Both the position numbers and the translations under genes were made by a program. A stretch of 64,000 nt of DNA from Duganella zoogloeoides (GTDB lineage Bacteria > Pseudomonadota > Gammaproteobacteria > Burkholderiales > Burkholderiaceae_D). The notes under the pieces were generated by a model. The model was not told where the DNA came from. It worked only from the letters and a program-made list of their open reading frames with translations, and searched no databases. The number at the start of each line of letters is the position of its first letter. Positions within the stretch are counted from its first letter, which is position 1. Location of the stretch: the NCBI RefSeq assembly GCF_034479515.1, contig NZ_CP140152.1:1984001-2048000 (forward strand), read 5' to 3'. This document shows positions 17,215 through 37,875 of this stretch, in pieces.

Positions 17215-17281
17215 GATACCGGTTTCGGTATCGAAAACACCAAAAAATTGATTGGTTTGTTTTCCCGCTCACAAATAAGAT
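17215..17281 (+). promoter_or_regulatory. Dyad operator and promoter for the TonB receptor (site A)
   Basis: A perfect 18-bp dyad GATACC-GGTTTC-GGTATC (17215-17232), followed by GAA, then 19 bp to a -35 box TTGGTT (17252-17257), an 18-bp spacer and a -10 box TAAGAT (17276-17281). The dyad centre would lie near -65 from the start of transcription, the usual position of a LysR-type activator site. The same arrangement occurs at 23631 and 37809. The 5' leader would be about 53 nt. Confidence 0.7.
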
Positions 17282-17340
17282 CATTTCAACAGCCGATACA
17301 GGCTGGGGTAGAGCCACATAACAACGAGCACTGGAGACAC

Positions 17341-20016
17341 ATGAACACCACGATCAACGGGACGGCATCGTCCCGCGCGCAGCATTCCCTCGTCCTCAAG
17401 TCGGGCGTCGCAGTTTTGGCAGCTGCCGGCCTGCTGTCTGCTTTCCCTGTACTGGCGCAAGAAGCGCCGGCTGCGGCAACGGAGACGCCCGTCGCCGATC
17501 CCAACGTTTCGGTCATTACCGTGACCGGCATGCGCCGCGCGGCCGAATCGGCGCAAAAACTCAAACAGGACGCCGACAACGTCATCGATTCCATCGTCGC
17601 TGACGACATTGGCAAGTTCCCGGACACGAACGTGGCGCAAACCCTGGCCCGTGTGACCGGCATCCAGGTGCGCCGCGATGCGGGCGAAGCCAATACCGTG
17701 CTCATTCGCGGTTTGCCCGGCATTGCCACGCTGCTCAACGGCCGTGAAATGTTTACGACCACCGGCCGCTATATCCAGCTGGCCGACATTCCTTCGACCA
17801 TGCTCCAGCGCGTGGATGTCTATAAATCGCAAAGCGCGGACCTGATGGAAGGCGGCGTGGCCGGCGTGATCGACGTGCGCACCAACCGTCCGTTCGATTT
17901 CAAGGAATTTACCGCCAGCGCCCAGGTGGGCGGCAAGAACAAGGACAAGGCCAACGCCACCGATCCCGAGCTGTCGGGCATGATCTCGAACCGCTGGAAA
18001 ACCGGCGCCGGCGAAGTGGGCGCCTTGTTTGGTGTGTCGTCGGTGAAGGACAGCTATGCCGAGGAACGCGTGTTCCAGACGTTCCCGATCGATAAGAGCT
18101 TTGCCGCCCCCAACCTGACTGGCCCGGACCTGGTCGGCCTGCAGAACATCCACGGCGAGCGCAAGCGCCAGGCCGCCAACTACGCGTTCCAGTGGAAGCC
18201 GAACGCGGACCTGGAAGTGTATGCCGAAGGCCTGTATTCGACCTTCAAGCGGACCAACGAGACCGACTTCTTTGTCGGCCTGCCGTGGGCCACCAGCCCG
18301 GACCAGATCAAGGTCACCAAGATCCCCGGCACCAACCAGACCGAGACCATCAACTCGACCAACTCGTTTACCATCCTGTCCACCCAGGCGCTGCGGTCGA
18401 AAACCACGTCGTCGCAGCACGCCGTGGGCGCCAAGTGGCGCGCCACGCCGGGCTTGCGCCTGAGCTCCGAGCTGGCCGTCACCGACAGTAAATACGATTG
18501 GGCCAACCCGATCCTCGATACCAGCACCACTGCCGACAGCGCGTACATCAAGACCAATGCTGGCAAGAGCCCCTATGCGCAATACACGGGTTCCGGCCTG
18601 AGCGACCCGACCAAGATCGTGTTGTCGCAGTTCTTCGACCGTTACGGGTACGATACCGGCAAGTCCACCGACTGGCGCGCGGACGGCACCTGGACGCCGG
18701 AAAGCGATGGCTTCTTCAAGGATGTGAGCTTCGGCGTGCGCGCCAACGAGCGCAAGGCCAGTTCGATCAAGGCCAACGAAAGCAGCGTACAGTCGCGCCC
18801 CGGCATCACCATGGCCAGCGTGCCTGGCCTTTCGTGCACCACGCCCGGCATGTCGGAAAACTATGGCACCGCCAGCTGGGCTACGCCGTGCGCGGGTTAT
18901 CTGCTCAATAACACGGCCTCGGTCCGCGAACTGACCACTGGTTCGTCGGCGGCCAAGCCGATCGATCCGGCATCGTTCTTCCGCAACACCGAGAAGAACT
19001 ATGCGGCGTATGCCAAGACCCGCGTGGGCTTCGACCTGGGCAAGTATCCGGTGGAAGGCGTGATCGGCGTACGCGTATCGAAGACCGATTCGACCATCGA
19101 CGCCAACAACGCCACCACCGATATCAACAACAACACTGTCTACACCCCGACCACCAGCAAGTCGTCGGGTACCGAGGTGCTGCCGAGCGCGAACTTCAAG
19201 CTCGAGATCCGCAAGGACCTGCTGGCGCGCTTCGCCTACAACAAGACGCTGACCCGTCCCGACTTCGCGCAGCTGAATCCGGCCACAGCCTACATCAAGC
19301 CTAACGGCACCACCAACGTGGCCAGCGCCACCGGCGGCAATCCGGGCCTGAAACCGTTCACTGCGCAGAACTTCGACGCGACCATGGAATGGTACTTCGC
19401 CTCCACCGGCTCGGTCAGCGGCACCGTGTTCCGCCACAACTTCGACGGCTACATCGTCAACCGCGTGGTGTCGGAAAACTTCGAGGGCGTGCCCTACAAC
19501 GTGACCCGCCCAACCAACTCGGACAAGGGCCACCTGCAAGGCGTGGAGCTGGCGTACCAGCAGTTCTACGATGGCTTGCCCGGATGGCTGAGCGGTTTTG
19601 GCCTGCAGGCCAACGTCACCTACACCGAAGGCGGCGTCACCTCGGGCAATACGCCGCTGCTGCTGGACAAACCGTTCCAGGGCCTGTCGCGCCTGTCGTA
19701 CAACATCGTTGGCCTGTACGAGAAGGATGCCTGGTCGGCGCGCCTGGCGTACAACTGGCGCTCGAAGTTTGTCGACCTGTATGCCGATACGCCCGACCGG
19801 GCCAACCTGGCCGGCAAGGACCTGATCGTGGCGCCAAGTTCGTCGCTGGACGGCTCGCTCAGCTACAAGCTGACCAAGCAGGTTACGCTCAACCTGACCG
19901 GCACCAACCTGCTCAACTTCAAATACCGCGATTACTGGGATAACGAAAACGACTTCCCGCGCGATACCCGCCGCTACGACCGCACGGTGGGGCTGTCGAT
20001 GAACTTGAAGTATTAA
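17341..20016 (+). CDS. TonB-dependent outer-membrane receptor, probably for arabino-oligosaccharides
   Basis: An 891-residue TonB-dependent transporter with a signal peptide (cleavage after PVLAQ, about residue 41), an N-terminal plug domain (about 60-180; DIGKFPDTNVAQTLARVTGIQV, NTVLIRG, GGVAGVIDV) and a 22-strand barrel ending in an aromatic residue (LSMNLKY). The plug resembles the Xanthomonas/Caulobacter subfamily that takes up carbohydrates. The ATG is preceded by GGAGAC. It is the first gene after the site A promoter and the arabinan locus follows, so I infer uptake of arabinan fragments. Unlike in Bacteroidetes, no SusD partner is present. Confidence 0.88.
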   Translation: MNTTINGTASSRAQHSLVLKSGVAVLAAAGLLSAFPVLAQEAPAAATETPVADPNVSVITVTGMRRAAESAQKLKQDADNVIDSIVADDIGKFPDTNVAQTLARVTGIQVRRDAGEANTVLIRGLPGIATLLNGREMFTTTGRYIQLADIPSTMLQRVDVYKSQSADLMEGGVAGVIDVRTNRPFDFKEFTASAQVGGKNKDKANATDPELSGMISNRWKTGAGEVGALFGVSSVKDSYAEERVFQTFPIDKSFAAPNLTGPDLVGLQNIHGERKRQAANYAFQWKPNADLEVYAEGLYSTFKRTNETDFFVGLPWATSPDQIKVTKIPGTNQTETINSTNSFTILSTQALRSKTTSSQHAVGAKWRATPGLRLSSELAVTDSKYDWANPILDTSTTADSAYIKTNAGKSPYAQYTGSGLSDPTKIVLSQFFDRYGYDTGKSTDWRADGTWTPESDGFFKDVSFGVRANERKASSIKANESSVQSRPGITMASVPGLSCTTPGMSENYGTASWATPCAGYLLNNTASVRELTTGSSAAKPIDPASFFRNTEKNYAAYAKTRVGFDLGKYPVEGVIGVRVSKTDSTIDANNATTDINNNTVYTPTTSKSSGTEVLPSANFKLEIRKDLLARFAYNKTLTRPDFAQLNPATAYIKPNGTTNVASATGGNPGLKPFTAQNFDATMEWYFASTGSVSGTVFRHNFDGYIVNRVVSENFEGVPYNVTRPTNSDKGHLQGVELAYQQFYDGLPGWLSGFGLQANVTYTEGGVTSGNTPLLLDKPFQGLSRLSYNIVGLYEKDAWSARLAYNWRSKFVDLYADTPDRANLAGKDLIVAPSSSLDGSLSYKLTKQVTLNLTGTNLLNFKYRDYWDNENDFPRDTRRYDRTVGLSMNLKY

Positions 20017-20035
20017 GCAATTCCGTAGTATCCCA

Positions 20036-20062
20036 AGCCATCCCGCCGCGTGCGGGATGGCT
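20036..20062 (+). terminator. Stable intergenic hairpin after the TonB receptor gene
   Basis: AGCCATCCCGC (20036-20046) and GCGGGATGGCT (20052-20062) form a perfect 11-bp stem with a five-base loop. No T-run follows, so it is more likely an mRNA-stabilising or partial-termination element that lowers expression of the transporter relative to the receptor. Confidence 0.55.
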
Positions 20063-20086
20063 GCATTGATAAGAGGTAGCTAGCAG

Positions 20087-21436
20087 ATGTCGAATAAAAA
20101 ATTATCGCTGTTGGAAAAAGTGGGCTTTGGCGCCGGCGACATGGCGCTCAACGTGGTGATCTCGTCGATGATGTTGATCATCACGTTCTTCTACACCGAC
20201 ATCTACGGCCTCAAGACCTCCGACCTGGCGCTGCTGTTCTTCGTCGTCAAGGTGGTAGGCGCCATCGGCGACCTGGTGGTCGGCCAGCTCACCGACCGCT
20301 ACACCAGCCTGCGCATGGGCCGTTATCGCCCGTGGCTGCTGGCGCTGGCCGTTCCCTACGGGATCAGCGTGTTCTTCGTGTTTACCACGCCGGACTGGGA
20401 GTACAGCGCCAAGCTGGTATGGGCATACTCCACCTACATCATCATGACGCTGATGACGTCGGGCGTGGGCGTGGCCTACATCTCGCTGCCCAGCAGCCTG
20501 ACCGACGACCCGCAGGACCGCCTGTCGGCCAACGGCTACCGCCTGTTCTTCGCCAAGATCGGCGCCTTCATGGTGACGGTGGTGGTGCCGGTGCTGTCCG
20601 AGCGCTGGGGCGGCGGCAATCCTGCCGTGGGCTACCAGGCCGCGATGGCGGTGATGGCGATCGTCGGCATCGCATTGTTCCTGTTCTGCGTATTCACCAC
20701 CACCGAGCGCGTGCGCCACGTGGTGCAGCGCCAGTCGCTGTCGGACCAGTTGAAACTGCTGCTCAAGAATGACCAGTGGCTGATCCTGTGTGGCGTGTGC
20801 GTGGTGGGTACCATCGGCTACGTGGTGCGCGCATCCGCCGCCATCTACTACGCCAAGTACTACCTGGGCGGGAACACGGCCACCGTCTCGACGTTCCTGT
20901 CGATTGGCGTGGTGGCGGCGATCCTGTCGATGATTGCGTCCACCTGGATCACCAAGTTCTATTGCAAGGTCAAGCTGTTCCGCTGGTCGCAAATCGCCGT
21001 GGGCGTAATCAGCGCGCTGATCTATTTCGTGGTCAAACCAGGCGATGTGATGCTGGCGTTTGTGCTGTACTTCCTGCTGTCGTTCGTGGTGGACCTGCAC
21101 GCGCCGGTGTTCTGGTCGGCCATTGCCGAGACCATCGACTACGGCCAGGTGAAAACCGGCAAGCGCGTCTCGGGCTTTGCCTACGGCGGCATTTCCGTGT
21201 GCCAGAAGGCCGGCATGGGCATCGCCGGCGTGCTGGTGGGCTGGCTGCTGACGTACTTCCAGTACGCGCCCAACCACGAGCAGACCGCGTTCGCGCTGCA
21301 CGGCATCGTGCTGATGGTCACCCTGATTCCCGGCTTCTTCCACACCGTGATGGGACTGATGATGTTCCGCTACCGCGTGACCGACGAGTACTATGCGCAG
21401 GTGAAGAAGCAGATGGCTGTGCAAGCCCCGGCTTGA
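20087..21436 (+). CDS. GPH-family sugar:cation symporter
   Basis: A 449-residue MFS transporter with about 12 membrane helices. It fits the glycoside-pentoside-hexuronide family (MelB/XylP/XynP-like): KVGFGAGDMALNVVIS at the N-terminus, the DLVVGQLTDRYTSLRMGRYRPWLL loop between helices 2 and 3, and IAETIDYGQVKTGKRVSGF near 340, which is the usual GPH signature. Such carriers move pentosides or oligosaccharides with H+ or Na+ across the inner membrane. It sits between the TonB receptor and a cytoplasmic GH43 enzyme, so arabino-oligosaccharides or arabinose are the likely cargo. Confidence 0.88.
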   Translation: MSNKKLSLLEKVGFGAGDMALNVVISSMMLIITFFYTDIYGLKTSDLALLFFVVKVVGAIGDLVVGQLTDRYTSLRMGRYRPWLLALAVPYGISVFFVFTTPDWEYSAKLVWAYSTYIIMTLMTSGVGVAYISLPSSLTDDPQDRLSANGYRLFFAKIGAFMVTVVVPVLSERWGGGNPAVGYQAAMAVMAIVGIALFLFCVFTTTERVRHVVQRQSLSDQLKLLLKNDQWLILCGVCVVGTIGYVVRASAAIYYAKYYLGGNTATVSTFLSIGVVAAILSMIASTWITKFYCKVKLFRWSQIAVGVISALIYFVVKPGDVMLAFVLYFLLSFVVDLHAPVFWSAIAETIDYGQVKTGKRVSGFAYGGISVCQKAGMGIAGVLVGWLLTYFQYAPNHEQTAFALHGIVLMVTLIPGFFHTVMGLMMFRYRVTDEYYAQVKKQMAVQAPA

Positions 21437-21437
21437 T

Positions 21438-21461
21438 TGAATAACTTAGTGAATAACTTAG
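21438..21461 (+). repeat. 12-bp tandem duplication before the GH43 gene
   Basis: TGAATAACTTAG occurs twice head to tail between the symporter stop and the GH43 start. It looks like a recent duplication in the spacer and gives a second in-frame-neutral stop region. Confidence 0.7.
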
Positions 21462-21477
21462 AGTGGAAACCGAAGCA

Positions 21478-22431
21478 ATGCAAAACCCCGAAATCCTGCA
21501 ACCGCTGATCGAACAGCGCGCCGATCCGTTCATCATCCGCCACACCGACGGCTACTATTACTTCACCGCCTCGGTGCCGCAGTACGACCGCATCGAACTG
21601 CGCCGGGCCCTAACCATCGCCGGCCTGGTGGACGCTGAAAAAGTCGACGTCTGGCACAAACCGGACACCGGCGCCTACAGCGAACTGATTTGGGCGCCCG
21701 AGATCCACTTCAACGACGGCGCCTGGTATGTGTACTTTGCCGCCGCGCCGAGCCGCGAGATCAAGCACAAGCTGTTCCAGCACCGCATGTACGCGATCCG
21801 TAACACCAACGCCAATCCGTTGGAAGGCGAGTGGGAGTTCATGGGCCAGATCGACACCGGCATCGACACCTTCTGCCTGGACGCCACCACCTTCACCCAC
21901 AAGGGGCAGCTGTACTACCTGTGGGCGCAAAAGGACGTGGCCATCGAGGGCAATTCCAACCTGTACATCGCGCCGATGAAAACGCCGTGGCAGCTGGGCG
22001 GCCCGCCGGTCATGCTGAGCAAGCCGGAATTCGACTGGGAGATCCGTGGCTTCTGGGTCAACGAAGGTCCGTCGGTCCTGAAAAAGAACGGCAAGATCTT
22101 CATCAGCTACTCGGCCAGCGCCACCGACGAAAACTACGCGATGGGCATCCTGTGGGCCGACGAAAACGCCGACGTGCTCGATCCGGCCTCGTGGACCAAG
22201 AGCCCGCAGCCGGTGCTGCAGACGTGCTTCGAGCACGGCGTGTACGGACCTGGCCACAACAGTTTTACTATCGGCGACGATGGCGAAACTGTCATGCTGG
22301 TTTATCATGCAAGAACTTACACCGAGATCATCGGCGACCCGCTGTGGAACCCGGACCGTCACACCTATGTGAAACCACTGAAGTGGGACGAGCAGGGCAT
22401 GCCGGTGTTCGGCAAGCCATCGGTCGCGTGA
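21478..22431 (+). CDS. Cytoplasmic GH43 exo-alpha-L-arabinofuranosidase
   Basis: A 317-residue five-bladed beta-propeller glycosidase with no signal peptide, so it acts on imported sugars. The GH43 triad is visible: base Asp16 in RADPFII, the pKa-modulating Asp in FCLDATTF, and the acid Glu in NEGPSVLK; WAPEIHF is the blade-2 mark. The sequence resembles subfamily 26, whose members release arabinose from alpha-1,5-arabino-oligosaccharides. I start at ATG 21478; a GTG 15 bases earlier is also open. It follows the symporter by 41 bp and is likely in the same operon. Confidence 0.82.
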   Translation: MQNPEILQPLIEQRADPFIIRHTDGYYYFTASVPQYDRIELRRALTIAGLVDAEKVDVWHKPDTGAYSELIWAPEIHFNDGAWYVYFAAAPSREIKHKLFQHRMYAIRNTNANPLEGEWEFMGQIDTGIDTFCLDATTFTHKGQLYYLWAQKDVAIEGNSNLYIAPMKTPWQLGGPPVMLSKPEFDWEIRGFWVNEGPSVLKKNGKIFISYSASATDENYAMGILWADENADVLDPASWTKSPQPVLQTCFEHGVYGPGHNSFTIGDDGETVMLVYHARTYTEIIGDPLWNPDRHTYVKPLKWDEQGMPVFGKPSVA

Positions 22432-22450
22432 TGACCGTGAGCTGATGAGC

Positions 22451-22493
22451 CGTCATTCCGCGTCGGCGGACCGCCGCGCACGCGGGAATCCAT
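22451..22493. repeat. REP-like intergenic palindrome
   Basis: An imperfect palindrome beginning CGTCATTCCGCG and ending CGCGGGAATCCAT between the GH43 and epimerase genes. It is one arm-pair of the widespread extragenic repeat with ends GTCATTCC and GGAATCCA; a second, longer copy is at 25566-25646. Confidence 0.6.
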
Positions 22494-22559
22494 AGAACAT
22501 GCGCGCGGCCGGGCAGGTGATCAACCTCTCCGGCCGCAGTACCATCGAGAGACCTCCAC

Positions 22560-23618
22560 ATGCAACCATCGATTTCAGAATCGCCGTTCGGCCAACTGCC
22601 CGACGGCCGCGCCGTCACCCAGTACACCCTTACCAACGCCAACGGCATGATCGTCAAGATCCTCGACCTGGGCGGGATCATCACCGAAATCCATGTGCCC
22701 GACCGCGACGGCAAAGTGACCGATGTGGTGTGCAGCTTCGACGACGTGGCCGCCTACCTGGGCGAGTCGCATTACTTCGGCGCGCTGATCGGTCGCTATG
22801 GCAACCGCATCGCCAACGCCAGCTTCACGCTCGACGGCACGCAGTACCAGCTCGACGTCAACAACGGCGCCAACCACCTGCACGGCGGCGTCGATGGCTT
22901 CCATCGCCGCCTATGGGCCGCCGAGAGCTTCAACACCCCCAAGTCGGCCGGCCTGATACTCACGTACCTGAGCGCCGACGGCGAGCAGGGCTACCCGGGC
23001 AACCTGGAAACCACGGTGATCTACGAGCTGCGCGCCGATAACGAGTTGCGCATCGCCTTCCACGCCATCACCGACCGGGCCACGCCGGTGAATCTCACCA
23101 ACCACGCCTACTTCAACCTGGCCGGCGGCGGCGACATCCTCGGCCACGAACTGACGATACACGCCGACCGCTACACGCCGATCGACGCCGTGCAGATCCC
23201 GCTGGGCGACCTGCCGCCGGTGGCCGGCACGCCGTTCGATTTTCAGACGCCGCACGCCATCGGCGCGCGCATCGACGCCGACGACGAGCAAATTCGCAAC
23301 GGTTTTGGCTATGACCATAACTTCGTTCTCGCCAAAAAGACGGAGGGTGCCCTGGAGTTGGCCGCGCGCGTGCGCGAGCCGGCATCGGGCCGGGTGCTGG
23401 AGGTATGGACCCAGGAACCGGGCGTGCAGTTCTACAGCGGTAATTTTCTCGGCGATTCGGTACAAGGAAAAGGGCGCATCTACGGCCATCGTAGCGCCTT
23501 CTGTCTGGAACCCCAGCACTTCCCCGATTCGCCCAACCGGCCCGCGTATCCATCGACGATTTTGCGCCCGGGCGAGGAGTACACGACCGTCATGGCTTAC
23601 AAGTTCACGACCGAATAA
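22560..23618 (+). CDS. galM: Aldose 1-epimerase
   Basis: A 352-residue mutarotase interconverting the alpha and beta anomers of aldoses such as arabinose or galactose, supplying the anomer used by the sugar dehydrogenase. The catalytic His182 is in TNHAYFNLAG and the catalytic Glu317 in FCLEPQHFPDSPN; the substrate-binding GRYGNRIANA and NHLHGG are also present. Length is normal. It is the last gene before the second dyad promoter and belongs with the upstream transport genes or is expressed from its own weak promoter. Confidence 0.92.
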   Translation: MQPSISESPFGQLPDGRAVTQYTLTNANGMIVKILDLGGIITEIHVPDRDGKVTDVVCSFDDVAAYLGESHYFGALIGRYGNRIANASFTLDGTQYQLDVNNGANHLHGGVDGFHRRLWAAESFNTPKSAGLILTYLSADGEQGYPGNLETTVIYELRADNELRIAFHAITDRATPVNLTNHAYFNLAGGGDILGHELTIHADRYTPIDAVQIPLGDLPPVAGTPFDFQTPHAIGARIDADDEQIRNGFGYDHNFVLAKKTEGALELAARVREPASGRVLEVWTQEPGVQFYSGNFLGDSVQGKGRIYGHRSAFCLEPQHFPDSPNRPAYPSTILRPGEEYTTVMAYKFTTE

Positions 23619-23630
23619 GTGCCAGCCACC

Positions 23631-23697
23631 GATATCCATTTCGGTATCGAAGTCGTTTAACAATTTATTGGAAAGTTATCTCAGTACATTTTAGACT
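23631..23697 (+). promoter_or_regulatory. Dyad operator and promoter for the arabinose oxidation operon (site B)
   Basis: Dyad GATATC-CATTTC-GGTATC (23631-23648) followed by GAA, 19 bp to the -35 box TTGGAA (23668-23673), an 18-bp spacer, then -10 TAGACT (23692-23697). The spacing is identical to sites A and C. The predicted leader of about 59 nt ends at the dehydratase ATG with GAGGAG. Confidence 0.7.
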
Positions 23698-23762
23698 GCT
23701 TTCATCGCTGTGCTGGCGTGGTTTGGCCGGGCCGGCGCACAAGAATAACTGAGGAGATTTGC

Positions 23763-25508
23763 ATGTCCGAGAACGACAACAAGAAAGTTAAGCTGCGCTC
23801 CGCCGAATGGTTCGGCTCCAATGACAAGAACGGTTTCATGTACCGCAGCTGGATGAAAAACCAGGGCATTCCCGATCATGAATTCCAGGGCAAACCGATC
23901 ATCGGCATCTGCAACACCTGGTCCGAACTGACCCCGTGCAATGCCCATTTCCGCAAGCTGGCCGAACACGTCAAGCGCGGCATCCTGGAGGCGGGCGGCT
24001 TCCCGGTCGAATTCCCGGTCTTCTCGAACGGCGAATCGAACCTGCGTCCGACCGCCATGCTGACCCGTAACCTGGCGTCGATGGACGTCGAAGAATCGAT
24101 CCGTGGCAATCCGATGGACGGCGTGGTCCTGCTGGTGGGCTGCGACAAAACCACTCCGGCACTGCTGATGGGCGCCGCGTCGGTCGATATCCCGACCATC
24201 GTCGTCACCGGCGGTCCTATGCTGAACGGTAAGCTGAACGGCAAGAACATCGGTTCCGGCACCGCCGTCTGGCAGCTGCACGAGCAGGTCAAGGGCGGCG
24301 AAATCAGCATGCACGAATTCCTGGCCGCCGAAGCCGGCCACTCGCGTTCCGCTGGTACCTGCAACACCATGGGCACCGCATCGACGATGGCCTGCATGGC
24401 CGAATCGCTCGGTACCTCGCTGCCGCACAACGCCGCCATTCCGGCTGTCGATGCGCGCCGCTATGTGCTGGCGCACATGTCGGGCATCCGCATCGTTGAA
24501 ATGGTCCGCGAAGACCTCAAACTGTCGAAGATCCTGACCAAGGAAAACTTCGAAAACGCGATTCGCGTGAACGCCGCCATCGGTGGCTCGACCAACGCCG
24601 TGATCCACTTGAAGGCCATCGCCGGCCGTATCGGTGTCGATCTGGAACTGGAAGACTGGACCCGCGTGGGCCGTGGCATGCCGACCATCGTCGACCTGCT
24701 GCCATCGGGCCGCTTCCTGATGGAAGAGTTTTATTACGCCGGTGGTTTGCCGGGCGTGATCCGCCGCATGGGCGAAGGTAACTTGCTGCCCAACCCGAAC
24801 GCGCTCACCGTCAACGGCAAAACCATCTGGGAAAACTGCCTGGACGCGCCGATCTACGACGACGAAGTAATCCGTCCGCTGGAGAAGCCGCTGCTGAAAG
24901 ACGGCGGCATCTGCATCTTGCGCGGCAACCTGGCGCCACGCGGTGCGGTACTGAAGCCATCGGCTGCCACCCCGGCGCTGATGCAGCATCGCGGCCAGGC
25001 CGTGGTGTTCGAGGACTTCGAGCACTACAAGTCGCGCATCCTGGATCCGGACCTGGAAGTCGATGCGAACTCGATCCTGGTCATGAAAAACTGCGGTCCG
25101 AAAGGTTATCCCGGCATGGCTGAAGTAGGCAATATGGGTCTGCCGCCGAAGCTGCTGGCAGCAGGCGTGAAAGACATGGTCCGTATCTCGGATGCCCGCA
25201 TGAGCGGCACTGCCTACGGCACCGTGGTGCTGCACGTGGCGCCCGAAGCGATGGCCGGCGGTCCGCTAGGCATCGTCAAGGATGGCGACTGGATTACGCT
25301 GGACTGCGCCGGCGGGGAACTGAACCTGGAAATCTCGGATGCCGAGATGGCCGAGCGCCAGGCAGTACGCGTGGCCGGCAGCGCGCCGGGACCGAAAACC
25401 GGTTACCAGCAGCTGTACATCGAACACGTGCTGCAGGCCGACGAGGGCTGCGACTTCGACTTCCTGGTCGGGAACCGTGGTTCGGCTGTGCCGCGTCATT
25501 CGCACTAA
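23763..25508 (+). CDS. L-arabonate dehydratase (IlvD/Edd family)
   Basis: A 581-residue Fe-S dehydratase that would convert L-arabonate to 2-keto-3-deoxy-L-arabonate. Iron-sulphur cysteines are in GICNTWSELTPC, LVGCDKTT and AGTCNTMGTAST, the three positions used by IlvD/Edd enzymes. Its length and its first residues (RSAEWFGSNDKNGFMYRSW) are those of the pentonate/hexonate group and not of the biosynthetic IlvD. GAGGAG precedes the ATG. It opens an operon with an FAH-family protein, a semialdehyde dehydrogenase and an SDR. D-xylonate or D-galactonate activity cannot be excluded, but arabinan enzymes next door favour arabonate. Confidence 0.85.
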   Translation: MSENDNKKVKLRSAEWFGSNDKNGFMYRSWMKNQGIPDHEFQGKPIIGICNTWSELTPCNAHFRKLAEHVKRGILEAGGFPVEFPVFSNGESNLRPTAMLTRNLASMDVEESIRGNPMDGVVLLVGCDKTTPALLMGAASVDIPTIVVTGGPMLNGKLNGKNIGSGTAVWQLHEQVKGGEISMHEFLAAEAGHSRSAGTCNTMGTASTMACMAESLGTSLPHNAAIPAVDARRYVLAHMSGIRIVEMVREDLKLSKILTKENFENAIRVNAAIGGSTNAVIHLKAIAGRIGVDLELEDWTRVGRGMPTIVDLLPSGRFLMEEFYYAGGLPGVIRRMGEGNLLPNPNALTVNGKTIWENCLDAPIYDDEVIRPLEKPLLKDGGICILRGNLAPRGAVLKPSAATPALMQHRGQAVVFEDFEHYKSRILDPDLEVDANSILVMKNCGPKGYPGMAEVGNMGLPPKLLAAGVKDMVRISDARMSGTAYGTVVLHVAPEAMAGGPLGIVKDGDWITLDCAGGELNLEISDAEMAERQAVRVAGSAPGPKTGYQQLYIEHVLQADEGCDFDFLVGNRGSAVPRHSH

Positions 25509-25565: not shown

Positions 25566-25646
25566 CGTCATCCTCGCGAAAGCGGGGATCCATACTGAGT
25601 AACAGGATCAGGCGTTCCATGGATCCCCGCGTGCGCGAGGATGACG
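25566..25646. repeat. Paired inverted extragenic repeat (REP/BIME-like)
   Basis: Two inverted copies of a 28-bp unit: one starting CGTCATCCTCGCG and ending GGGGATCCAT, the other its reverse complement ending CGAGGATGACG, with about 25 bp between them. The whole can fold into a long cruciform between the dehydratase and the FAH-family gene. No coding content. Confidence 0.75.
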
Positions 25647-25715
25647 GGGCGGCGGCCACGATTGCCGCGACGGCTGCGCTCAGCAAGCTGCAACCCGCAA
25701 TTCAAGGAGACTTCC

Positions 25716-26708
25716 ATGCTACTCATCCAATTCACCAACGAACAAGGCGCGCGCCAAATCGGCGTGCTGGAACAGGACACCGTCCGCATCATCGACGGCT
25801 ACACCACCACGTACGCCCTGGCACAGGACGCGATCCGTAAATCGGTCGGCCTGGCCGCCCTGGCCGACAAGTCCATTGGCACCAACACCGCTTCGTTTGA
25901 GGCGATTGCCGCCGACGGCCGTCTGCTCCCGCCACTCGATCACACCGACGACGCCCACACCTACGTCACCGGCACCGGCCTGACCCACCTGGGCAGCGCC
26001 GACACCCGCGACGCCATGCACAAGAAAATCGGCGGCGACGTCGAGACCCTGAGCGATTCCATGAAGATGTTCCGCATGGGCGTCGAAGGCGGCAAACCTG
26101 CGGCCGGTGAGGCTGGCGTGCAGCCGGAGTGGTTCTACAAGGGCGACGGCTCCATCGTCGCCGCCAGCGGCAAGGACCTGGCCATGCCGGACTTCGCGCT
26201 CGACGGCGGCGAAGAGCCGGAAGTGGCCGGTCTGTACGTGATTGGCGACGACGGCCAGCCGTACCGCGTCGGTTTCGCGATCGGCAACGAGTTCTCGGAC
26301 CACGTGACCGAGCGCCAGAACTACCTGTACCTGGCCCACTCCAAGCTGCGCGTCTGCGGCCTGGGTCCGGCCCTGCTGGTCGGCGCAGCGCCAGCGCACA
26401 TCGAAGGCACTTCGCGCATCTATGATGTTGACGGCAAGGTACGCTGGGAAAAGGCGTTCTTCAGCGGCGAGCAGAATATGTCGCACACCATCGCCAACCT
26501 GGAGCACCACCACTTCAAGTACCCGCTGTTCAACCGCGCGGGCGATGTGCACATCCACTTCTTCGGTACCGCCACCCTGAGCGTGGCGGACAACATCGTG
26601 GTCAAGGAAGGCGAAACCTTCGAGATCGACGCGCCGCAATTTGGCCCGGCACTGCGCAACAAGCTGGCCGTGTACAAAACCGAAGTCGCGAAAGTGAAAG
26701 CCTTATGA
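25716..26708 (+). CDS. FAH-family protein of the AraD1 type
   Basis: A 330-residue fumarylacetoacetate-hydrolase superfamily protein. RefSeq-type annotations call this group AraD1 because it sits in L-arabinose oxidation clusters. Residues typical of the fold include [39 protein letters not shown] and [11 protein letters not shown]. By context it either dehydrates 2-keto-3-deoxy-L-arabonate to 2-oxoglutarate semialdehyde in place of the DapA-type AraD, or cleaves a diketo-pentonate. The first fits the presence of the semialdehyde dehydrogenase. AAGGAG precedes the ATG. Its stop overlaps the next start as ATGA, indicating translational coupling. Confidence 0.82.
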
Positions 26709-31213: not shown

Positions 31214-31226
31214 CCAGGAGACCAGC

Positions 31227-32789
31227 ATGAACCACCGTACTTACAACATCAAAAATGCCGTAGCCACCCTGTGCCTGATCGCCGCCGGCGGTTATGCGTA
31301 CGCCGCGCCAGTGACCGTCACCATCGACACGTCGAAACCGGGCCCGGTAATCAACAAGAACGTCTATGGCCAGTTTGCCGAACACCTGGGCACCGGCATT
31401 TACGAAGGCATGTACGTCGGCCCGAAATCGAAAATCCCCAATACCCGTGGGTGGCGCAATGACGTCATCGGCGCGCTCAAGGAAATGCACGTGCCGCTGG
31501 TGCGCTGGCCGGGCGGCTGCTTCGCCGACGAATACCACTGGCGCGACGGCATCGGCGCGCGCGAAAAGCGTCCGGTCAAGGTCAACACCAACTGGGGCGG
31601 CGTGGAAGAATCGAACGCGGTGGGCACCCACGAGTTCTTCGACCTGGCCGAGCAGCTGGGCGCCGATACCTACGTGAACGGCAACCTGGGCACCGGCACG
31701 GCGCAGGAGATGTCGGAATGGGTGGAGTACATGACCTCCGACAGCAAATCGACGCTGGCCGAACTGCGCCGCAAGAATGGCCGCGACAAGCCGTTCAAGG
31801 TGGACTTCTTCGCCATCGGTAACGAGGCCTGGGGCTGCGGCGGCAACATGACGCCGCGCTACTACACGGACCTGTACAAGCAGACCGAAACCTTCCTGCG
31901 TGCGCCCAAGCACCTGCGTCCGCAAATCATCGCCAGCGGTGGCAACGACTACGACACCAGCTGGACCGACATGATCAGCCGCGAGGCCAAGAAGCAGACC
32001 TACGGCATCAGCTTCCACTACTACACCATCCCGACCGGCAAGTGGGAAGTGAAGGGCGCAGCTACCGGATTCAATGAAAGCGAATGGTTCTCGACCCTGT
32101 CGAACACGCTCAAGATCGACAGCATGATCAAGAAGAACGTCGAAGTCCTGGACCGCAACGACCCGGAGAAAAAAGTCGGCTTCCTGGTGGACGAGTGGGG
32201 CACCTGGTATGACGTGGAGAAGGGCACCAACGCCGGCTTCCTGTACCAGCAAAACACGCTGCGCGACGCGGTGGTGGCGGCGCTCAACTTCAACATCTTC
32301 CACGACCATGCCGACCGGGTGAAAATGACCAATATCGCGCAGATGGTCAACGTGCTGCAGGCGATGATCCTGACCGACAAGGACAAGATGCTGCTCACAC
32401 CGACGTACCACGCCTACCACATGTACGTGCCGTTCCAGGATGCGACATCGCTGCCGCTCACGCTCAAGGACAATCCACAGTATTCGTACAACGGCAGCAG
32501 CATTCCTGAAATCAGTGCATCGGCCGCGCGCGCCAAGGATGGCAAGCTCTATCTGGCACTGGTCAACACCAACCCGAACAAGGATGCCGACGTGGCGGTG
32601 GATGTGCCGGGCGTAAGCATCAAGTCGGTCAAGGGACGCGTGCTGACCGCGCCGGCCATCGACACCCACAACACCTTCCAGGCGCCGGACACCATCAAGC
32701 CTGCGCCATTTAGCGCCAATGCCGGCGCGGACGGCAAGCTGACGATCAAGATCCCGTCGAAAGCGGTGATCGTGGTGGCGGTGGAGTAA
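31227..32789 (+). CDS. Secreted GH51 alpha-L-arabinofuranosidase
   Basis: A 520-residue GH51 enzyme with a signal peptide (cleavage after AYAA, about 27). The acid/base Glu200 is in AIGNEAWGCGG and the nucleophile Glu323 in LVDEWGTW, both clan GH-A motifs; the N-terminal NKNVYGQFAEHLG and RWPGGCFADEYHWRDGIG are typical. The family removes alpha-1,2, -1,3 and -1,5 arabinofuranose. Export is notable because many bacterial GH51 enzymes are cytoplasmic. AGGAG precedes the ATG and the next gene follows after three bases. Confidence 0.9.
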   Translation: MNHRTYNIKNAVATLCLIAAGGYAYAAPVTVTIDTSKPGPVINKNVYGQFAEHLGTGIYEGMYVGPKSKIPNTRGWRNDVIGALKEMHVPLVRWPGGCFADEYHWRDGIGAREKRPVKVNTNWGGVEESNAVGTHEFFDLAEQLGADTYVNGNLGTGTAQEMSEWVEYMTSDSKSTLAELRRKNGRDKPFKVDFFAIGNEAWGCGGNMTPRYYTDLYKQTETFLRAPKHLRPQIIASGGNDYDTSWTDMISREAKKQTYGISFHYYTIPTGKWEVKGAATGFNESEWFSTLSNTLKIDSMIKKNVEVLDRNDPEKKVGFLVDEWGTWYDVEKGTNAGFLYQQNTLRDAVVAALNFNIFHDHADRVKMTNIAQMVNVLQAMILTDKDKMLLTPTYHAYHMYVPFQDATSLPLTLKDNPQYSYNGSSIPEISASAARAKDGKLYLALVNTNPNKDADVAVDVPGVSIKSVKGRVLTAPAIDTHNTFQAPDTIKPAPFSANAGADGKLTIKIPSKAVIVVAVE

Positions 32790-32792
32790 GCC

Positions 32793-34367
32793 ATGGAAGA
32801 CTTCATGCTCTCGCGCCGCAAGGCGATCGCCGGCGGCGTGGCGCTGCTGCTGGCCGGCTGCGGTGGTGGCGACGGGGTGAGCAACCCTGTCACCGCCACG
32901 CCGACGCCTACCCCGACGCCAACGCCGACACCGACACCGACGCCAACGCCAACGCCAACGCCAACGCCAACGCCAACGCCAACGCCCACCACGATCGCCT
33001 TCACGGAGGCATCGGTGCACGATCCGTCCGTGATCCGGGTCGATGGCACGTACTACGTGTTCGGCTCGCACCTGGCTGCCGCCAAGTCCACCGACTTGAT
33101 GAACTGGACCAAGATCGCCGACGGGGTCGATGCGGCCAACCCGCTGTTTTCCAACGTCATTACGGCGCTGGCCCCCACCTTCGCCTGGTCGCAGGTGAAT
33201 GGCCTGTGGGCGGCGGACGTGGCGCGCCTGGGCGACGGCAAGTTCTACTTCTACTACAACTCGTGCAAGGGCGATTCGCCGCGCTCCGCCATGGGCGTGG
33301 CCGTGGCGGACAAGGTGGAAGGCCCGTACGTGGACAAGGGCATGTTCCTGCGTTCCGGCATGTGGGACCAGGTCAGCGAGGACGGCGTCAATATCTATAA
33401 CGCGCTGACCATGCCCAACGTGGTGGATCCGCAGACATTCTTCGACAAGGACGGCAACCTGTGGATGATTTACGGCTCGTACTCGGGCGGCATCTTCATC
33501 CTGAAGATGGACAAGATTACCGGCAAGCCGGTGGCAGGCCAAGGCTACGGCAAGCACCTGATGGGCGGTAATCACAGCCGCATCGAAGGCGCCTATGTGC
33601 TCTACAGCCCGGAGTCGAAGTTCTACTACCTGTTTACGTCCTTTGGCGGCCTGGATGCCAATGGCGCGTACAACATGCGGGTGGCGCGGTCGCTCAACCC
33701 CGACGGCCCGTACGTCGATGCCAAGGGCAACGACATGGCCACGGTGAAATCCGATCCGGCAAAGCCGCTGTTCGACGACGCGACCATCGCACCGTTCGGC
33801 CAGAAGATCATGGGCAACCACCAGTTCGCACTGGCGGCGGGGGAAAGCGGCACGGCGCTTGGGTACGTTTCGCCGGGCCACAACTCGGCCTATTACGACG
33901 CTGCCACCGGCCAGTACTTCCTGATCTTCCACACGCGCTTCCCCGGCACCGGGGAGCTGCACCAGATCCGCGTGCACCAGATGTTCATCAACGCCGATGG
34001 CTGGCTGGTGGTGGCGCCGTTCCGCTACGCGCCGCTCAGCAAGAATGCGACGCCGTTGTCGGCGGTGGTCACGGTGGCGGATGCCGCCGGCAGCTACAAG
34101 ATGATCAACCACGGCAAGGATATTTCAGCGGTCATCAAGGCGTCGCAAAATATCGTGCTGGCGTCCGGCGGTGCGGTGACCGGTGCGGCGACCGGCACCT
34201 GGACCCATGATGGCGACAACCGCATCACGCTGGTACTGGGTACGCTCGGTACGTTCAAGGGCGTGCTGTCGCGCCAGTGGAATACCAACGCCAGCGCGTT
34301 CGTGGTGACGTGGACGGCGCAGTCGGTCGATGGTGTGTCGATCTGGGGTGCGCGCACGGGCAGTTAA
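32793..34367 (+). CDS. Lipoprotein GH43 endo-alpha-1,5-arabinanase with Pro-Thr linker
   Basis: A 524-residue lipoprotein: lipobox LLAGC with Cys23, then a Pro-Thr linker at residues 36-67, then a GH43 propeller (about 70-385) and a C-terminal beta-barrel domain. Catalytic triad: base Asp77 in SVHDPSV, the second Asp in NVVDPQTFF, and the acid Glu in HSRIEGAYVLY. The GHNSAYYD and HTRFPGTGELHQIRVHQMF segments resemble the Abn2 type of endo-arabinanase. The linker would hold the enzyme off the outer membrane. Both ATG 32793 and ATG 32805 have a ribosome site; the lipobox is unaffected. Confidence 0.85.
   Translation: MEDFMLSRRKAIAGGVALLLAGCGGGDGVSNPVTATPTPTPTPTPTPTPTPTPTPTPTPTPTPTPTTIAFTEASVHDPSVIRVDGTYYVFGSHLAAAKSTDLMNWTKIADGVDAANPLFSNVITALAPTFAWSQVNGLWAADVARLGDGKFYFYYNSCKGDSPRSAMGVAVADKVEGPYVDKGMFLRSGMWDQVSEDGVNIYNALTMPNVVDPQTFFDKDGNLWMIYGSYSGGIFILKMDKITGKPVAGQGYGKHLMGGNHSRIEGAYVLYSPESKFYYLFTSFGGLDANGAYNMRVARSLNPDGPYVDAKGNDMATVKSDPAKPLFDDATIAPFGQKIMGNHQFALAAGESGTALGYVSPGHNSAYYDAATGQYFLIFHTRFPGTGELHQIRVHQMFINADGWLVVAPFRYAPLSKNATPLSAVVTVADAAGSYKMINHGKDISAVIKASQNIVLASGGAVTGAATGTWTHDGDNRITLVLGTLGTFKGVLSRQWNTNASAFVVTWTAQSVDGVSIWGARTGS
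32898..32990 (+). repeat. Hexanucleotide tandem repeat coding for (Pro-Thr)n
   Basis: About 15 six-base units, mostly ACGCCA with ACGCCG and ACACCG variants, run without interruption inside the endo-arabinanase gene. The 6-bp period keeps the frame, so slippage would change only linker length. Confidence 0.85.
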
Positions 34368-34374
34368 ATCAAGA

Positions 34375-34405
34375 CCCGCCATTGCTGTTGTCCAGCAATG
34401 GCGGG
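34375..34405 (+). terminator. Strong hairpin after the endo-arabinanase gene
   Basis: CCCGCCATTGCTG and CAGCAATGGCGGG form a perfect 13-bp stem with a five-base loop, eight bases after the stop codon. Only TTT follows after GGC, so it is a partial terminator or processing hairpin in the operon. Confidence 0.7.
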
Positions 34406-34427
34406 GGCTTTCAGTCAAAGGCATTAC

Positions 34428-35450
34428 ATGAAGTCTCTCATTTCTTCGATCATCCTCGCTGCCGCCACGGTGGCAGCACTCCCGTCCACCGCCAAGGAAG
34501 TCAGCGTCCACGATCCCGTGATGGCGAAGGAAGGGGATACGTATTACGTATTCTCCACCGGCCCCGGCATCACCTTCTACAGTTCGAAGGACATGAAGAA
34601 CTGGAAACCGGAAGGGCGCGTGTTCGCCGGCCAGCCCACGTGGGCCAAGCGCGCCGCGCCGACGTTCGACGACCATATCTGGGCGCCGGACATCCAGCAC
34701 CATAATGGCAAATACTATTTATATTATTCCGTCTCCGGTTTCGGCAAGAACACCTCCGGCATGGGCGTTACCGTCAACAAGACGCTCGATCCGCGTTCGC
34801 CCGACTACCGCTGGGAAGACCAGGGCATGGTGCTGCAATCGGTGCCGGTGCGCGACGACTGGAACGCCATCGACCCGAATGTGATCGAAGATGAAAACGG
34901 TGATGCGTGGATGTCGTTCGGTTCGTTCTGGAGCGGCCTGAAGCTGGTCAAGCTCAATCAGGACTTGACCGGCCTGGCCGAGCCGCAGGAGTGGCACGCG
35001 ATCGCCGCGCGGCCGCGCAGCGACAAGGTGGCCGGCGAGTCCGCCGGTCCTGCCGAAATCGAAGCGCCGTACATCTTCAAGAAAAACGGTTATTACTACC
35101 TGTTTGCCTCCTTCGGCCTGTGCTGCAAGAAGGCCGACAGCACCTACCACCTGGTGGTGGGGCGCTCGAAGTCGGTCAAGGGCCCTTACCTGGACAAGCA
35201 GGGCGTGGACATGGTCAAGGGCGGCGGTTCGCTCGTGATCGCCGGCGACAAGGACTGGAAGGGCCTGGGCCACAACAGCGCCTACACCTTCGACGGCAAG
35301 GACTACCTGGTGCTGCACGCGTACGAGACAGCCGATAACTATCTGCAAAAGCTGAAGATCATGGAAATGAAATGGGACAAAAATGGCTGGCCCACCGTGG
35401 ACCAGGCTGACTTGAACAACTACCGCAGCGTGCAGCTGCCCGCCAAATGA
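34428..35450 (+). CDS. Secreted GH43 endo-arabinanase-like enzyme
   Basis: A 340-residue GH43 protein with a signal peptide (cleavage after STA near residue 22). Catalytic residues: Asp29 in VHDPVM, Asp in AIDPNVIED, Glu in EIEAPYIF; HIWAPDIQ is the second-blade mark. The GHNSAYTF near the C-terminus and the overall pattern match arabinan endo-1,5-alpha-L-arabinosidases of subfamily 5. Start ATG 34428 is preceded by AAAGG. Its stop overlaps the DUF1680 gene start (ATGA), so the pair is translationally coupled. Confidence 0.85.
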   Translation: MKSLISSIILAAATVAALPSTAKEVSVHDPVMAKEGDTYYVFSTGPGITFYSSKDMKNWKPEGRVFAGQPTWAKRAAPTFDDHIWAPDIQHHNGKYYLYYSVSGFGKNTSGMGVTVNKTLDPRSPDYRWEDQGMVLQSVPVRDDWNAIDPNVIEDENGDAWMSFGSFWSGLKLVKLNQDLTGLAEPQEWHAIAARPRSDKVAGESAGPAEIEAPYIFKKNGYYYLFASFGLCCKKADSTYHLVVGRSKSVKGPYLDKQGVDMVKGGGSLVIAGDKDWKGLGHNSAYTFDGKDYLVLHAYETADNYLQKLKIMEMKWDKNGWPTVDQADLNNYRSVQLPAK

Positions 35451-37822
35451 AATACCAGCTTCGCCTGCTGGCCGCCGCAGCCCTGATCGCGGTATCGAGC
35501 GTCGTCCATGCGGCGCCTCTGAAACTGTTCCCGCTGCAGGACGTGCGCCTGGGCGCCAGCCCGTTTCTGGAAGCGCAGCAGACCGACCTCCATTACATGA
35601 TGGAGATGGAACCGGACCGCCTGCTGGCGCCGTTCCTGCGCGAGGCGGGTCTGCCATTGAAAAAGCCGACGTACGGCAACTGGGAGTCCACCGGCCTCGA
35701 TGGCCACATGGGCGGCCATTACCTGTCGGCGCTGGCGCTGATGTATGCATCCACCGGCGATGCGGAAGTCAAGCAGCGGCTCGACTACTTCGTGGCGGAG
35801 CTCAAGCGCTGCCAGGAAAAGAACGGCAACGGCTATATCGGCGGCATCCCCGAGGGCAGCGCCGTGTGGCAGGCCATCGCCCGTGGTGAAATGAAAGCCG
35901 ATAACTTCTCGGTCAACGGCAAATGGGTCCCGTGGTACAACCTGCACAAGGTGTACGCGGGCCTGCGCGATGCCTACAAATATGCCGGTAACGAGGATGC
36001 GCGCACCATGCTGGTCGCGCTGTCCGACTGGGCGCTGGCACTGAGCGCGCACCTGACCGACGAACAGATGCAGAACATGCTGCGCGCGGAGCACGGCGGC
36101 ATGAACGAAGTGCTGGCCGACGTGGCCGAGATGACGGGGCAGAAAAAGTATATGGACCTGGCCGTGCGATTCTCGCACCAGGCCATCCTGCGCCCGCTCG
36201 AGGAAAAAAAGGACAAGCTGACCGGCCTGCACGCCAACACGCAAATCCCGAAAGTGATCGGCTTCAAGCGCATCGGCGACATCACGGGCCGGCGCGACTG
36301 GCAGCAGGCCGCGCAGTTCTTCTGGCAGACGGTACACGATCACCGCACGGTGGCCATTGGCGGCAACAGCGTCAAGGAGCACTTCCACGACGCCAACGAT
36401 TTCACGTCGATGATCGACGAGGTGGAGGGGCCGGAGACTTGCAATACGTACAATATGCTCAAGCTCACCGAGATGCTGTTCCTCGGCGACGCGAAAGGTT
36501 CGTACACCGACTACTACGAGCGTGCGCTGTACAACCACATCCTGTCGTCGCAGCGGCCCGATACCGGTGGCTTTGTATATTTCACGCCGATGCGGCCCAA
36601 CCACTACCGCGTGTATTCGCAGGTGGATAAGGGCATGTGGTGCTGCGTGGGTTCGGGCATCGAGAGCCACGCCAAGTACGGTGAGTTCATCTACGCCCAC
36701 GGCAAGGATGCGCTGTACGTGAACCTGTTCATCCCGTCCACGCTCAAGTGGAAGGAGAAGAACCTCACCATCACCCAGACCAACCAGTTCCCGGACCGGG
36801 ACAGCAGCACGATTACCGTGACCGGCAACGGCAAATTCGCGATGAAGATCCGCTATCCGTCGTGGGTGGCGCGCGGCGCCATGCGGGTGACGGTCAACGG
36901 CAAGACGGTGGCCGCCAAGCCGGGCGCGGACAGCTATGTCAGCGTCGAGCGCACCTGGAAGAGCGGCGACAAGGTGGAGGTCAGGCTGCCGATGACCACC
37001 TGGCTGGAACAGATGCCGGACAAGTCGAACTACTACGCCGTGCTGCACGGCCCCATCGTGCTGGCCGCGAAAACCGCGCCGATCGCCAATGAAAAGCTCA
37101 GCTTCCTGGCCGACGATTCGCGCATGGGCCATATCGCTTCCGGTCCGATGTGCCCGCTGGAGTCGGCGCCCACGCTGGTGAGCGACACCAAGGACTTCAT
37201 GGACCGCTTCAAGCCGGTGCCGGGCCGTTCGCTTACATTTACCGCACCGGGACTGGTGCAAGGTAAAGACGTGGGCAGCGTGGTCTTCATGCCGTTCTTC
37301 CGCCTGCACGATGCGCGCTACGTGATGTACTGGCCGTACTCCACGCCGGCCAACCTGCAGGCGATGCAGGCCAGGGCGGCCGAAGGGGAGAAGGAGCGGC
37401 TGGCCTTGAATGCGCTCACCATCGACCAGGTGGCGCCGGGCGAGCAGCAGCCCGAGTCCGATCACTTCTTCAAGTCCGACGGCGGCGAGGCCGGGATCAA
37501 CCAGGGCAAGCACTGGCGCCACGCGACCGGCTGGTTCAGCTACGACCTCACCGACAGGAAGGGAGAAGCAAGTGCGTTGCGCCTGACCTACGCCAGGGGC
37601 GATGCCGGCCGCAAGTTCGACATCGTCGTCAACGGCCAGTTGCTGGCGGAAGTGGTGCTGGACGACCAGGCCGCGCAGCCGTTCTACACGGTGGACTATG
37701 CGCTGCCGCCGGCGCTGGTGGCAGCGGCGAAGGGCAAGCTGGTGGTGAAGTTCGTGGCCAAGCCGGGGTCGATCGCTGGCGGCTTGTACGGACTGCGGCT
37801 GCTCAGGCTATATCCGAAATGA
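35447..37822 (+). CDS. DUF1680-family beta-L-arabinofuranosidase (GH127/GH146)
   Basis: A 791-residue exported (alpha/alpha)6-barrel enzyme with a signal peptide of about 22 residues. Conserved parts are GLDGHMGGHYLSALAL, WVPWYNLHKVYAGLRDAY, GGMNEVLADV, GPETCNTYNMLKLTEMLF and MWCCVGSGIESHAKYG. The Glu and Cys residues of PETC and the CC pair fit the zinc-cysteine nucleophile site of this clan. The CCVGxG motif resembles GH146 more than the CCPPN type of GH127, as far as I recall the families. It would remove beta-linked L-arabinofuranose caps from pectin or arabinoxylan side chains. Confidence 0.83.
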   Translation: MKYQLRLLAAAALIAVSSVVHAAPLKLFPLQDVRLGASPFLEAQQTDLHYMMEMEPDRLLAPFLREAGLPLKKPTYGNWESTGLDGHMGGHYLSALALMYASTGDAEVKQRLDYFVAELKRCQEKNGNGYIGGIPEGSAVWQAIARGEMKADNFSVNGKWVPWYNLHKVYAGLRDAYKYAGNEDARTMLVALSDWALALSAHLTDEQMQNMLRAEHGGMNEVLADVAEMTGQKKYMDLAVRFSHQAILRPLEEKKDKLTGLHANTQIPKVIGFKRIGDITGRRDWQQAAQFFWQTVHDHRTVAIGGNSVKEHFHDANDFTSMIDEVEGPETCNTYNMLKLTEMLFLGDAKGSYTDYYERALYNHILSSQRPDTGGFVYFTPMRPNHYRVYSQVDKGMWCCVGSGIESHAKYGEFIYAHGKDALYVNLFIPSTLKWKEKNLTITQTNQFPDRDSSTITVTGNGKFAMKIRYPSWVARGAMRVTVNGKTVAAKPGADSYVSVERTWKSGDKVEVRLPMTTWLEQMPDKSNYYAVLHGPIVLAAKTAPIANEKLSFLADDSRMGHIASGPMCPLESAPTLVSDTKDFMDRFKPVPGRSLTFTAPGLVQGKDVGSVVFMPFFRLHDARYVMYWPYSTPANLQAMQARAAEGEKERLALNALTIDQVAPGEQQPESDHFFKSDGGEAGINQGKHWRHATGWFSYDLTDRKGEASALRLTYARGDAGRKFDIVVNGQLLAEVVLDDQAAQPFYTVDYALPPALVAAAKGKLVVKFVAKPGSIAGGLYGLRLLRLYPK

Positions 37823-37875
37823 TATCGAACAAGCGCAAAATGTGATTGGATAGATATTTCCCTAGCCCTTAGTAT
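37809..37875 (+). promoter_or_regulatory. Dyad operator and promoter for the third GH43 gene (site C)
   Basis: TATATC-CGAAAT-GATATC (37809-37826; five of six left-arm positions keep the symmetry) followed by GAA, 19 bp to the -35 box TTGGAT (37846-37851), an 18-bp spacer and -10 TAGTAT (37870-37875). The left arm overlaps the last codons of the DUF1680 gene. Predicted leader about 50 nt. Confidence 0.65.

Follow-up and report, generated by a model that had tools for sequence, protein, structure and literature searches.

A LysR-type regulator as the very probable activator of three rigidly built promoters in an arabinan-utilization cluster of Duganella zoogloeoides

Which regulator serves the promoters that head an arabinan- and arabinoside-utilization cluster in Duganella zoogloeoides? 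The cluster lies within a stretch of 64,000 nucleotides (the window: RefSeq assembly GCF_034479515.1, contig NZ_CP140152.1, positions 1,984,001 to 2,048,000 of the forward strand; positions below count from its first letter), and an earlier, sequence-only reading had proposed that three promoters share one dyad with identical geometry and form an arabinose regulon under a LysR-type activator. Judged from sequence comparisons, the neighbouring LysR-type regulator (38971..39909, + strand) very probably switches on all three promoters, and the same protein probably represses its own gene; we give this reading a probability of about 0.88.

Three modules of identical geometry

The cluster consists of three gene groups, each of which is headed by one module on the + strand. 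Module 1 (17215..17281) is composed of the dyad GATACC-N6-GGTATC (17215-17232), a -35-like TTGGTT (17252-17257) and the -10 element TAAGAT (17276-17281), and is the predicted promoter of genes for a TonB-dependent receptor, a GPH-family transporter, a GH43 glycosidase (GH, glycoside hydrolase family) and an aldose epimerase. Module 2 (23631..23697), ahead of the catabolic and further glycosidase genes, has the dyad GATATC-N6-GGTATC (23631-23648), TTGGAA (23668-23673) and TAGACT (23692-23697), and module 3 (37809..37875), which overlaps the 3' end of a GH127 gene and precedes a GH43 gene and lysR, has the dyad TATATC-N6-GATATC (37809-37826), TTGGAT (37846-37851) and TAGTAT (37870-37875). Direct reading thus bears out the shared GATAYC-N6-GRTATC dyad, followed by GAA in each case and with a single arm base altered at 37809, and it equally bears out the geometry, as 19 bp separate the dyad from TTGG and the -35/-10 spacer measures 18 bp at all three modules. 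With start codons at 17341, 23763 and 37932, the claimed leaders of about 50-59 nt are correct if transcription is assumed to start about 7 nt after the -10 element. As that reading also stated, the dyad exceeds the classical LysR box by one base, a length that was already known from PcaQ. The classical T-N11-A core is absent from it, as there is no strongly conserved T with a conserved A 12 positions on; T17 and A29 of the profile described below are 12 positions apart, but A29 lies outside the dyad. The sequence-only reading had overlooked two things, a conserved block at positions 29-50 of the module and, ahead of lysR, a fourth site whose spacing differs.

By itself the dyad has only moderate specificity: the window contains 13 copies at up to two mismatches where 2.39 are expected, and the genome contains five exact places, two of them in this cluster, and 88 at up to one mismatch. 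When the dyad is extended to dyad-GAA-N15-ATTGG, the 6.32 Mb genome contains six places at up to three mismatches, namely the modules with 0, 0 and 1 mismatch and three others with 3 each, so that modules 1-3 are the sole matches at up to one mismatch; the reversed control pattern has no genomic match at up to three mismatches. A pattern of the downstream half without the dyad finds modules 1-3 at 0 mismatches and one further place in the genome at 2, while its reversed control gives one match per strand. With a matrix that was built without the window's sites, close relatives including D. phyllosphaerae being kept, modules 1, 2 and 3 score 74.7, 74.9 and 74.5 bits; the next best position in the window scores -6.3, on the opposite strand at the lysR site, and simulated sequence (3 Mb) reaches -15 at best. 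No matrix site above 8 bits was found within 12 kb around each of the other three exact genomic dyads (508500, 2103254 and 4757814). The genome-wide scan that had been suggested for the motif with its -35 therefore did not reveal random occurrence, and the extended motif is confined to the cluster.

A plain sigma-70 and terminator scan of positions 20001-40000 gave counts at chance level (6 vs 4.7; 17 vs 17.0), and modules 2 and 3 are missing from its + strand sigma-70 output (module 1 lies outside that stretch), which fits a dependence on an activator. The same scan has one promoter-like match on the - strand over module 3.

Conservation of the module and its company with LysR

In a family sample of 195 genomes, in which presence was counted per genome, the loose pattern (dyad-GAA-N15-ATTGG) occurs in 85 genomes at up to two mismatches, and its reversed control has one match overall (G099). 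The profile of sites taken from relatives' loci (83 at up to two mismatches, 64 of them non-redundant) describes a rigid 67-bp module, counted from the first dyad base: GATAYC-N6-GRTATC at positions 1-18, GAA at 19-21, an A-rich tract at 29-33 (A at 0.91, 0.98, 0.80, 0.97 and 0.67), TgATTGG at 35-41, AtnGnTATc at 42-50, and little signal until TAnnAT at 62-67 (TA at 0.95 and 0.95, AT at 0.80 and 0.94). Conservation extends to three elements that the search pattern did not contain, namely the A-tract, the GnTATc half-site and the TAnnAT -10, and the -10 is an independently conserved set of columns. The TGATTGGATnGnTATC block covers the -35 and contains a third half-site (45-50), which follows the arm at 13-18 by 32 bp, i.e. 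about three helical turns.

LysR-type activators typically have a recognition site, a dyad near -65, and an activation site over the -35. The module has just this layout relative to its conserved -10: the assumed start puts the centre of the dyad at about -65 and the second block between about -46 and -25, where it overlies a poor -35 (TTGGAT). A LysR tetramer would accordingly sit on the 18-bp dyad and on the second block, with the third half-site of the activation site in phase three turns downstream, and on binding an inducer from the arabinose pathway it would recruit RNA polymerase to these promoters, whose -10 is good and whose -35 is poor. As the sequence-only reading would require, the module precedes the same genes in relatives at similar distances, with 83-99 nt to the start codon at 11 of the 16 dehydratase sites and at nine of the ten TonB-receptor sites.

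Membership of the regulator in the LysR family is clear from PF00126 (70.8 bits) and PF03466 (116.1 bits), both above cut-off, and the protein shares 99% identity with its counterpart in D. phyllosphaerae T54. Matches at an E value of 1e-40 or better occur in 88 of the 195 genomes, and among the matches listed the identities form two groups, at least 57% and at most 44%; the upper group, picked by hand from the listed matches and taken as orthologues, is found in 70 genomes. As the loose pattern also matches genomes without this LysR, co-occurrence was assessed with a strict pattern (right arm, A-tract, ATTRG and -10, up to one mismatch), which occurs in 68 genomes. Module and LysR are both present in 67 genomes, LysR only in three, the module only in one and neither in 124 (Fisher p 2e-47, kinship not considered), and each of the genera g4, g12, g19, g29 and g33 holds genomes with both and genomes with neither. 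Where LysR is encoded divergently, as in some genera, the module lies between lysR and a porin, short-chain dehydrogenase/reductase (SDR) or lactonase gene. Beyond the family, a sample of the order yielded ten further genomes with a LysR of 49-56% identity, seven of which have a site above 25 bits at the locus (25.8 to 60.1), several of these in the interval between lysR and a gene for the dehydratase or AraD1. A sample of the class contains 368 other genomes, of which three, none of them from the order, have a LysR match at E 1e-70; among four LysR loci from these three genomes, one has a clear site (49.5 bits, ahead of GH51, with a -10 that is poor by eye). Two LysR paralogues of the own genome (39-40% identity) were considered as well, and no matrix site above 8 bits was found in the 18 kb around each. 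Taken together, the confinement, the conservation, the co-occurrence and the modules in lysR intergenic regions strongly support the idea of a shared regulon that would be controlled by this LysR.

Some observations weigh against such a regulon. Among 134 relatives' sites at up to three mismatches, 96 have no gene of the window's cluster within 260 nt, many of these preceding other sugar genes. The dyad, GAA and ATTGG columns of the profile are shaped by the search pattern, the matrix was trained with a relative as close as D. phyllosphaerae, and the genomes compared are non-independent samples. Three genomes with LysR lack a strict match (G067, G094 and G133; best matrix sites near LysR 52, 23 and 45 bits), one genome (G171) has a strict match without the LysR orthologue, its 40% identical paralogue having no matrix site above 5 bits at its locus, and the loose pattern matches genomes without LysR. 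At the order level, the sites of three of the ten loci stay below 25 bits (15.8 bits or nothing above 8), and the other three class-level loci have none above 5 bits.

How do other explanations compare with an activation by LysR? That a different regulator, for instance a repressor encoded elsewhere, uses the dyads as operators, and that LysR is linked to them merely by its position in the cluster, is very unlikely: physical linkage alone would indeed yield a co-occurrence of module and LysR, both being cluster members, but in several genera the module lies between the divergent LysR gene and its neighbour even though these neighbours differ, and the spacing to the -10 and the position at -65 are those of LysR activators. 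Related half-sites are moreover present ahead of lysR itself, and some modules are far from the cluster (e.g. in G106 and in g6 genomes), the linkage therefore being incomplete. A chance likeness of three promoters has a negligible probability; the dyad alone would not be rare enough to refute it, but the specificity of the extended pattern, the relatives' profile, the matrix scores, the co-occurrence with LysR and the conservation across genera all speak against it.

The regulator's own gene and the third promoter

The fourth site (38913..38962, + strand) consists of four half-sites that are spaced unlike those of the modules, a 21-bp dyad GATATC-N9-GGTGTT (38913-38933) and an 18-bp dyad TATGCC-N6-GATATC (38945-38962), each with two mismatches in the window. 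An extended -10 (TGATATCAT, 38956..38964, + strand) overlaps the last half-site and ends 6 nt before the lysR ATG. In many relatives (among the best 80 of 116 loci found), the order upstream of lysR is GATAYC-N9-GRTATY, about 11 bp, RATAYC-N6-GATATn, AT, about six bases and ATG. Of the 80 loci, 61 (31 of them non-redundant) have the proximal dyad with no more than one mismatch; the seed columns of this profile are likewise shaped by its search pattern, and the columns outside the pattern, T at 11 (0.97) and AT at 18-19 (0.97 and 0.97), complete an extended -10, TGATATnAT, in the 31 non-redundant relatives. TGRTATNAT lies no more than 40 nt from lysR in 62 of the 80 loci. The ATG of lysR thus sits at the distance from the extended -10 at which transcription would start, and no Shine-Dalgarno sequence is seen by eye before lysR in the window. 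Because the last operator arm coincides with the -10, lysR is probably autorepressed, and the arrangement suggests a leaderless transcript; the same LysR would bind the four half-sites and thereby probably repress its gene.

Three Duganella loci (Duganella sp. CF402, D. rivi and D. flavida; L145, L148 and L157) lack the whole site; just 2 nt separate the GH43 stop codon from the lysR ATG there, and the module is retained upstream, so that lysR would hardly be expressed except together with the operon. Tentatively, and with slightly less than even odds, one may combine these observations into one LysR with two DNA grammars: its targets would carry the rigid activation module and its own gene a 21-bp and an 18-bp dyad, the last arm of which would be the extended -10 of a leaderless message. 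LysR would then be expressed at a low, self-limited level, supplemented by induced read-through from module 3, and the three Duganella without the site would run on positive feedback alone. Translation of lysR from a read-through message may be poor where the gene lacks a Shine-Dalgarno sequence, and the feedback through read-through is therefore uncertain. At the loci L166 / L122 (Duganella sp. Leaf126), the last GH43 gene (GH43d) and module 3 were not found and lysR comes after GH127; the 200 nt before lysR contain no dyad there at up to two mismatches.

Module 3 itself has a history that can be followed in relatives. Of the 80 loci, 70 have a module above 30 bits on the strand of lysR, 4.6-5.9 kb before that gene; of the remaining ten, eight have none within the up to 10 kb examined, and the distance is 7.6 kb in one and 1.16 kb in D. 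phyllosphaerae. In relatives this third module precedes an operon for a sugar ATP-binding cassette (ABC) transporter, and five Duganella loci have the module followed by the start of a binding-protein-like gene, one of them (L124) with one ATPase-like and two permease-like frames, recognized by eye, before GH43. In D. phyllosphaerae and in the window, module 3 overlaps the end of GH127, the ABC genes are absent, and GH43 comes directly next. Since the transporter arrangement is common in other genera, a deletion is the simpler reading, and the promoter that now serves GH43 and lysR is therefore probably an inherited transporter promoter.

In 150 related loci (2.8 Mb) we found 167 distinct sites above 15 bits. 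When the longest reading frame starting within 260 nt of a site is taken as target, and one representative of each of ten target groups is examined with Pfam, a periplasmic sugar-binding protein forms the largest group with 74 sites, followed by the dehydratase (21), the TonB receptor and a second binding-protein type (11 each) and a porin (8). Minor targets with one to three sites each include epimerase, SDR, AraD1, lactonase, GH97, GH43, GH3, GPH symporter and aldo-keto reductase genes; some low-scoring groups are probably false, being frames that overlap real genes. As modules also occur outside the main cluster, before another TonB receptor in G106 (L128) and before a second sugar-binding protein in G072 (L088), the regulon is larger in some relatives.

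Gene content, inducer and comparison with known systems

All genes of the cluster are on the + strand. The first group encodes the TonB-dependent receptor (17341..20016; PF00593/PF07715, TIGR01782), the GPH-family sugar:cation symporter (20087..21436; PF13347, TIGR00792), a GH43 glycosidase (21463..22431; PF04616) and the aldose 1-epimerase (22560..23618; PF01263). The second begins with an IlvD/Edd-family dehydratase, probably an L-arabonate dehydratase (23763..25508; PF00920), which is above the cut-off of NF004784 and at 824 bits below that of the L-arabinonate dehydratase model (882). It continues with a GguC / AraD1 family protein (25641..26708; no Pfam match, NF040903 at 518.3 bits, cut-off 340), an aldehyde dehydrogenase, probably for alpha-ketoglutarate semialdehyde (26705..28285; PF00171; best NCBIfam model 2,5-dioxovalerate dehydrogenase, far below cut-off), an SDR dehydrogenase that probably carries out the aldose 1-dehydrogenase step (28360..29127; PF13561; 334 bits against the D-xylose 1-dehydrogenase model, cut-off 400), and GH97, GH51, GH43, GH43 and GH127 genes (29249..37822; Pfam). 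The first gene past module 3 encodes a GH43 glycosidase (37932..38906; PF04616). These genes would be candidates for the oxidative L-arabinose pathway (sugar dehydrogenase, arabonate dehydratase, 2-keto-3-deoxy-L-arabonate dehydratase (AraD1) and alpha-ketoglutarate semialdehyde dehydrogenase), with AraD1/GguC above cut-off, the dehydratase above the broader model only, and the aldehyde dehydrogenase and SDR below their specific cut-offs.

Is L-arabinose then the signal? The designation as an arabinose regulon is supported by the gene content (GH51, GH127, GH43, AraD1/GguC and the arabonate-type dehydratase), and L-arabinose itself is a candidate inducer. LysR activators commonly respond to pathway intermediates, and it is an even bet that the regulon is real and driven by LysR but answers to L-arabonate, to 2-keto-3-deoxy-L-arabonate or to a different derivative of a pentose or of galactose. 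Such a signal would fit the SDR, whose nearest model is a D-xylose 1-dehydrogenase, the dehydratase, which remains below the L-arabinonate cut-off, and the genes that follow related sites, among them GH3, LamB-type and, after a weak 23.7-bit site, GH2 genes. Conversely, GH51, GH127, several GH43 and AraD1 jointly point to L-arabinose, although they do not separate arabinose from its intermediates. A sequence comparison with solved structures gave a single one at E 1e-20 or better, that of an OxyR (3.6e-21), which is too distant to suggest an inducer.

Three further features of the region were observed. Midway through the operon, a perfect 13-bp hairpin (34375-34405) lies between two GH43 genes and may stabilize or attenuate the message. 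A further GH43 gene, with a GH43_C2 domain (49450-51267), lies outside the regulon, and by the best matrix positions in the window no module lies ahead of it. A MarR-type regulator fused to a GNAT acetyltransferase is encoded at 40733-41899, adjoining a penicillin-amidase-family gene at 41966.

With the recognition site, the phased third half-site and the -10 at fixed distances, the module offers an unusually sharp and testable sequence definition of a promoter of the LysR-activator type, and it links a regulator that is widespread in Oxalobacteraceae to the use of plant arabinan. The lysR site, in which an operator arm is the -10 just before the start codon, and the genomes without this site provide a ready comparison of a putatively autorepressed circuit with one that would depend on feedback only.

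We found no description of this regulator in Oxalobacteraceae in the open-access literature, most subscription journals lying outside the search. The nearest NCBIfam model is that of PcaQ, a LysR-type activator of protocatechuate genes in Sinorhizobium and Agrobacterium, which this LysR matches at 194.1 bits and thus below the cut-off of TIGR02424 (303.8). The PcaQ site ATAaccgggggatTAT is a 16-bp even dyad reported to be centred 65.5 bp upstream of the gene (PMC5002191), and in a comparison by eye a 16-bp even dyad (ATAYC-N6-GRTAT) at about -65 is common to PcaQ and the modules. PcaQ is also reported to repress its own gene while it activates its operon (PMC12285266). Unlike in the PcaQ system, the targets here are sugar genes and not aromatic-acid genes, and the inner bases of the dyad differ. 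A LysR-family AraR has been predicted from genome context in Halomonas, where it is divergent from its targets, the oxidative L-arabinose pathway, a mutarotase and an ABC transporter (PMC5507952). The likeness lies in a LysR-family regulator proposed for arabinose genes, and unlike the Halomonas cluster the present one additionally contains TonB-receptor, GH43, GH51 and GH127 genes. Other arabinose regulators are AraC of E. coli, LacI-type and GntR-type proteins (PMC10204090), which belong to protein families different from LysR. The even dyad of the PcaQ type and the prediction of a LysR-family AraR are thus already known, whereas the unusual feature of the present system is the arrangement at the regulator's own gene.

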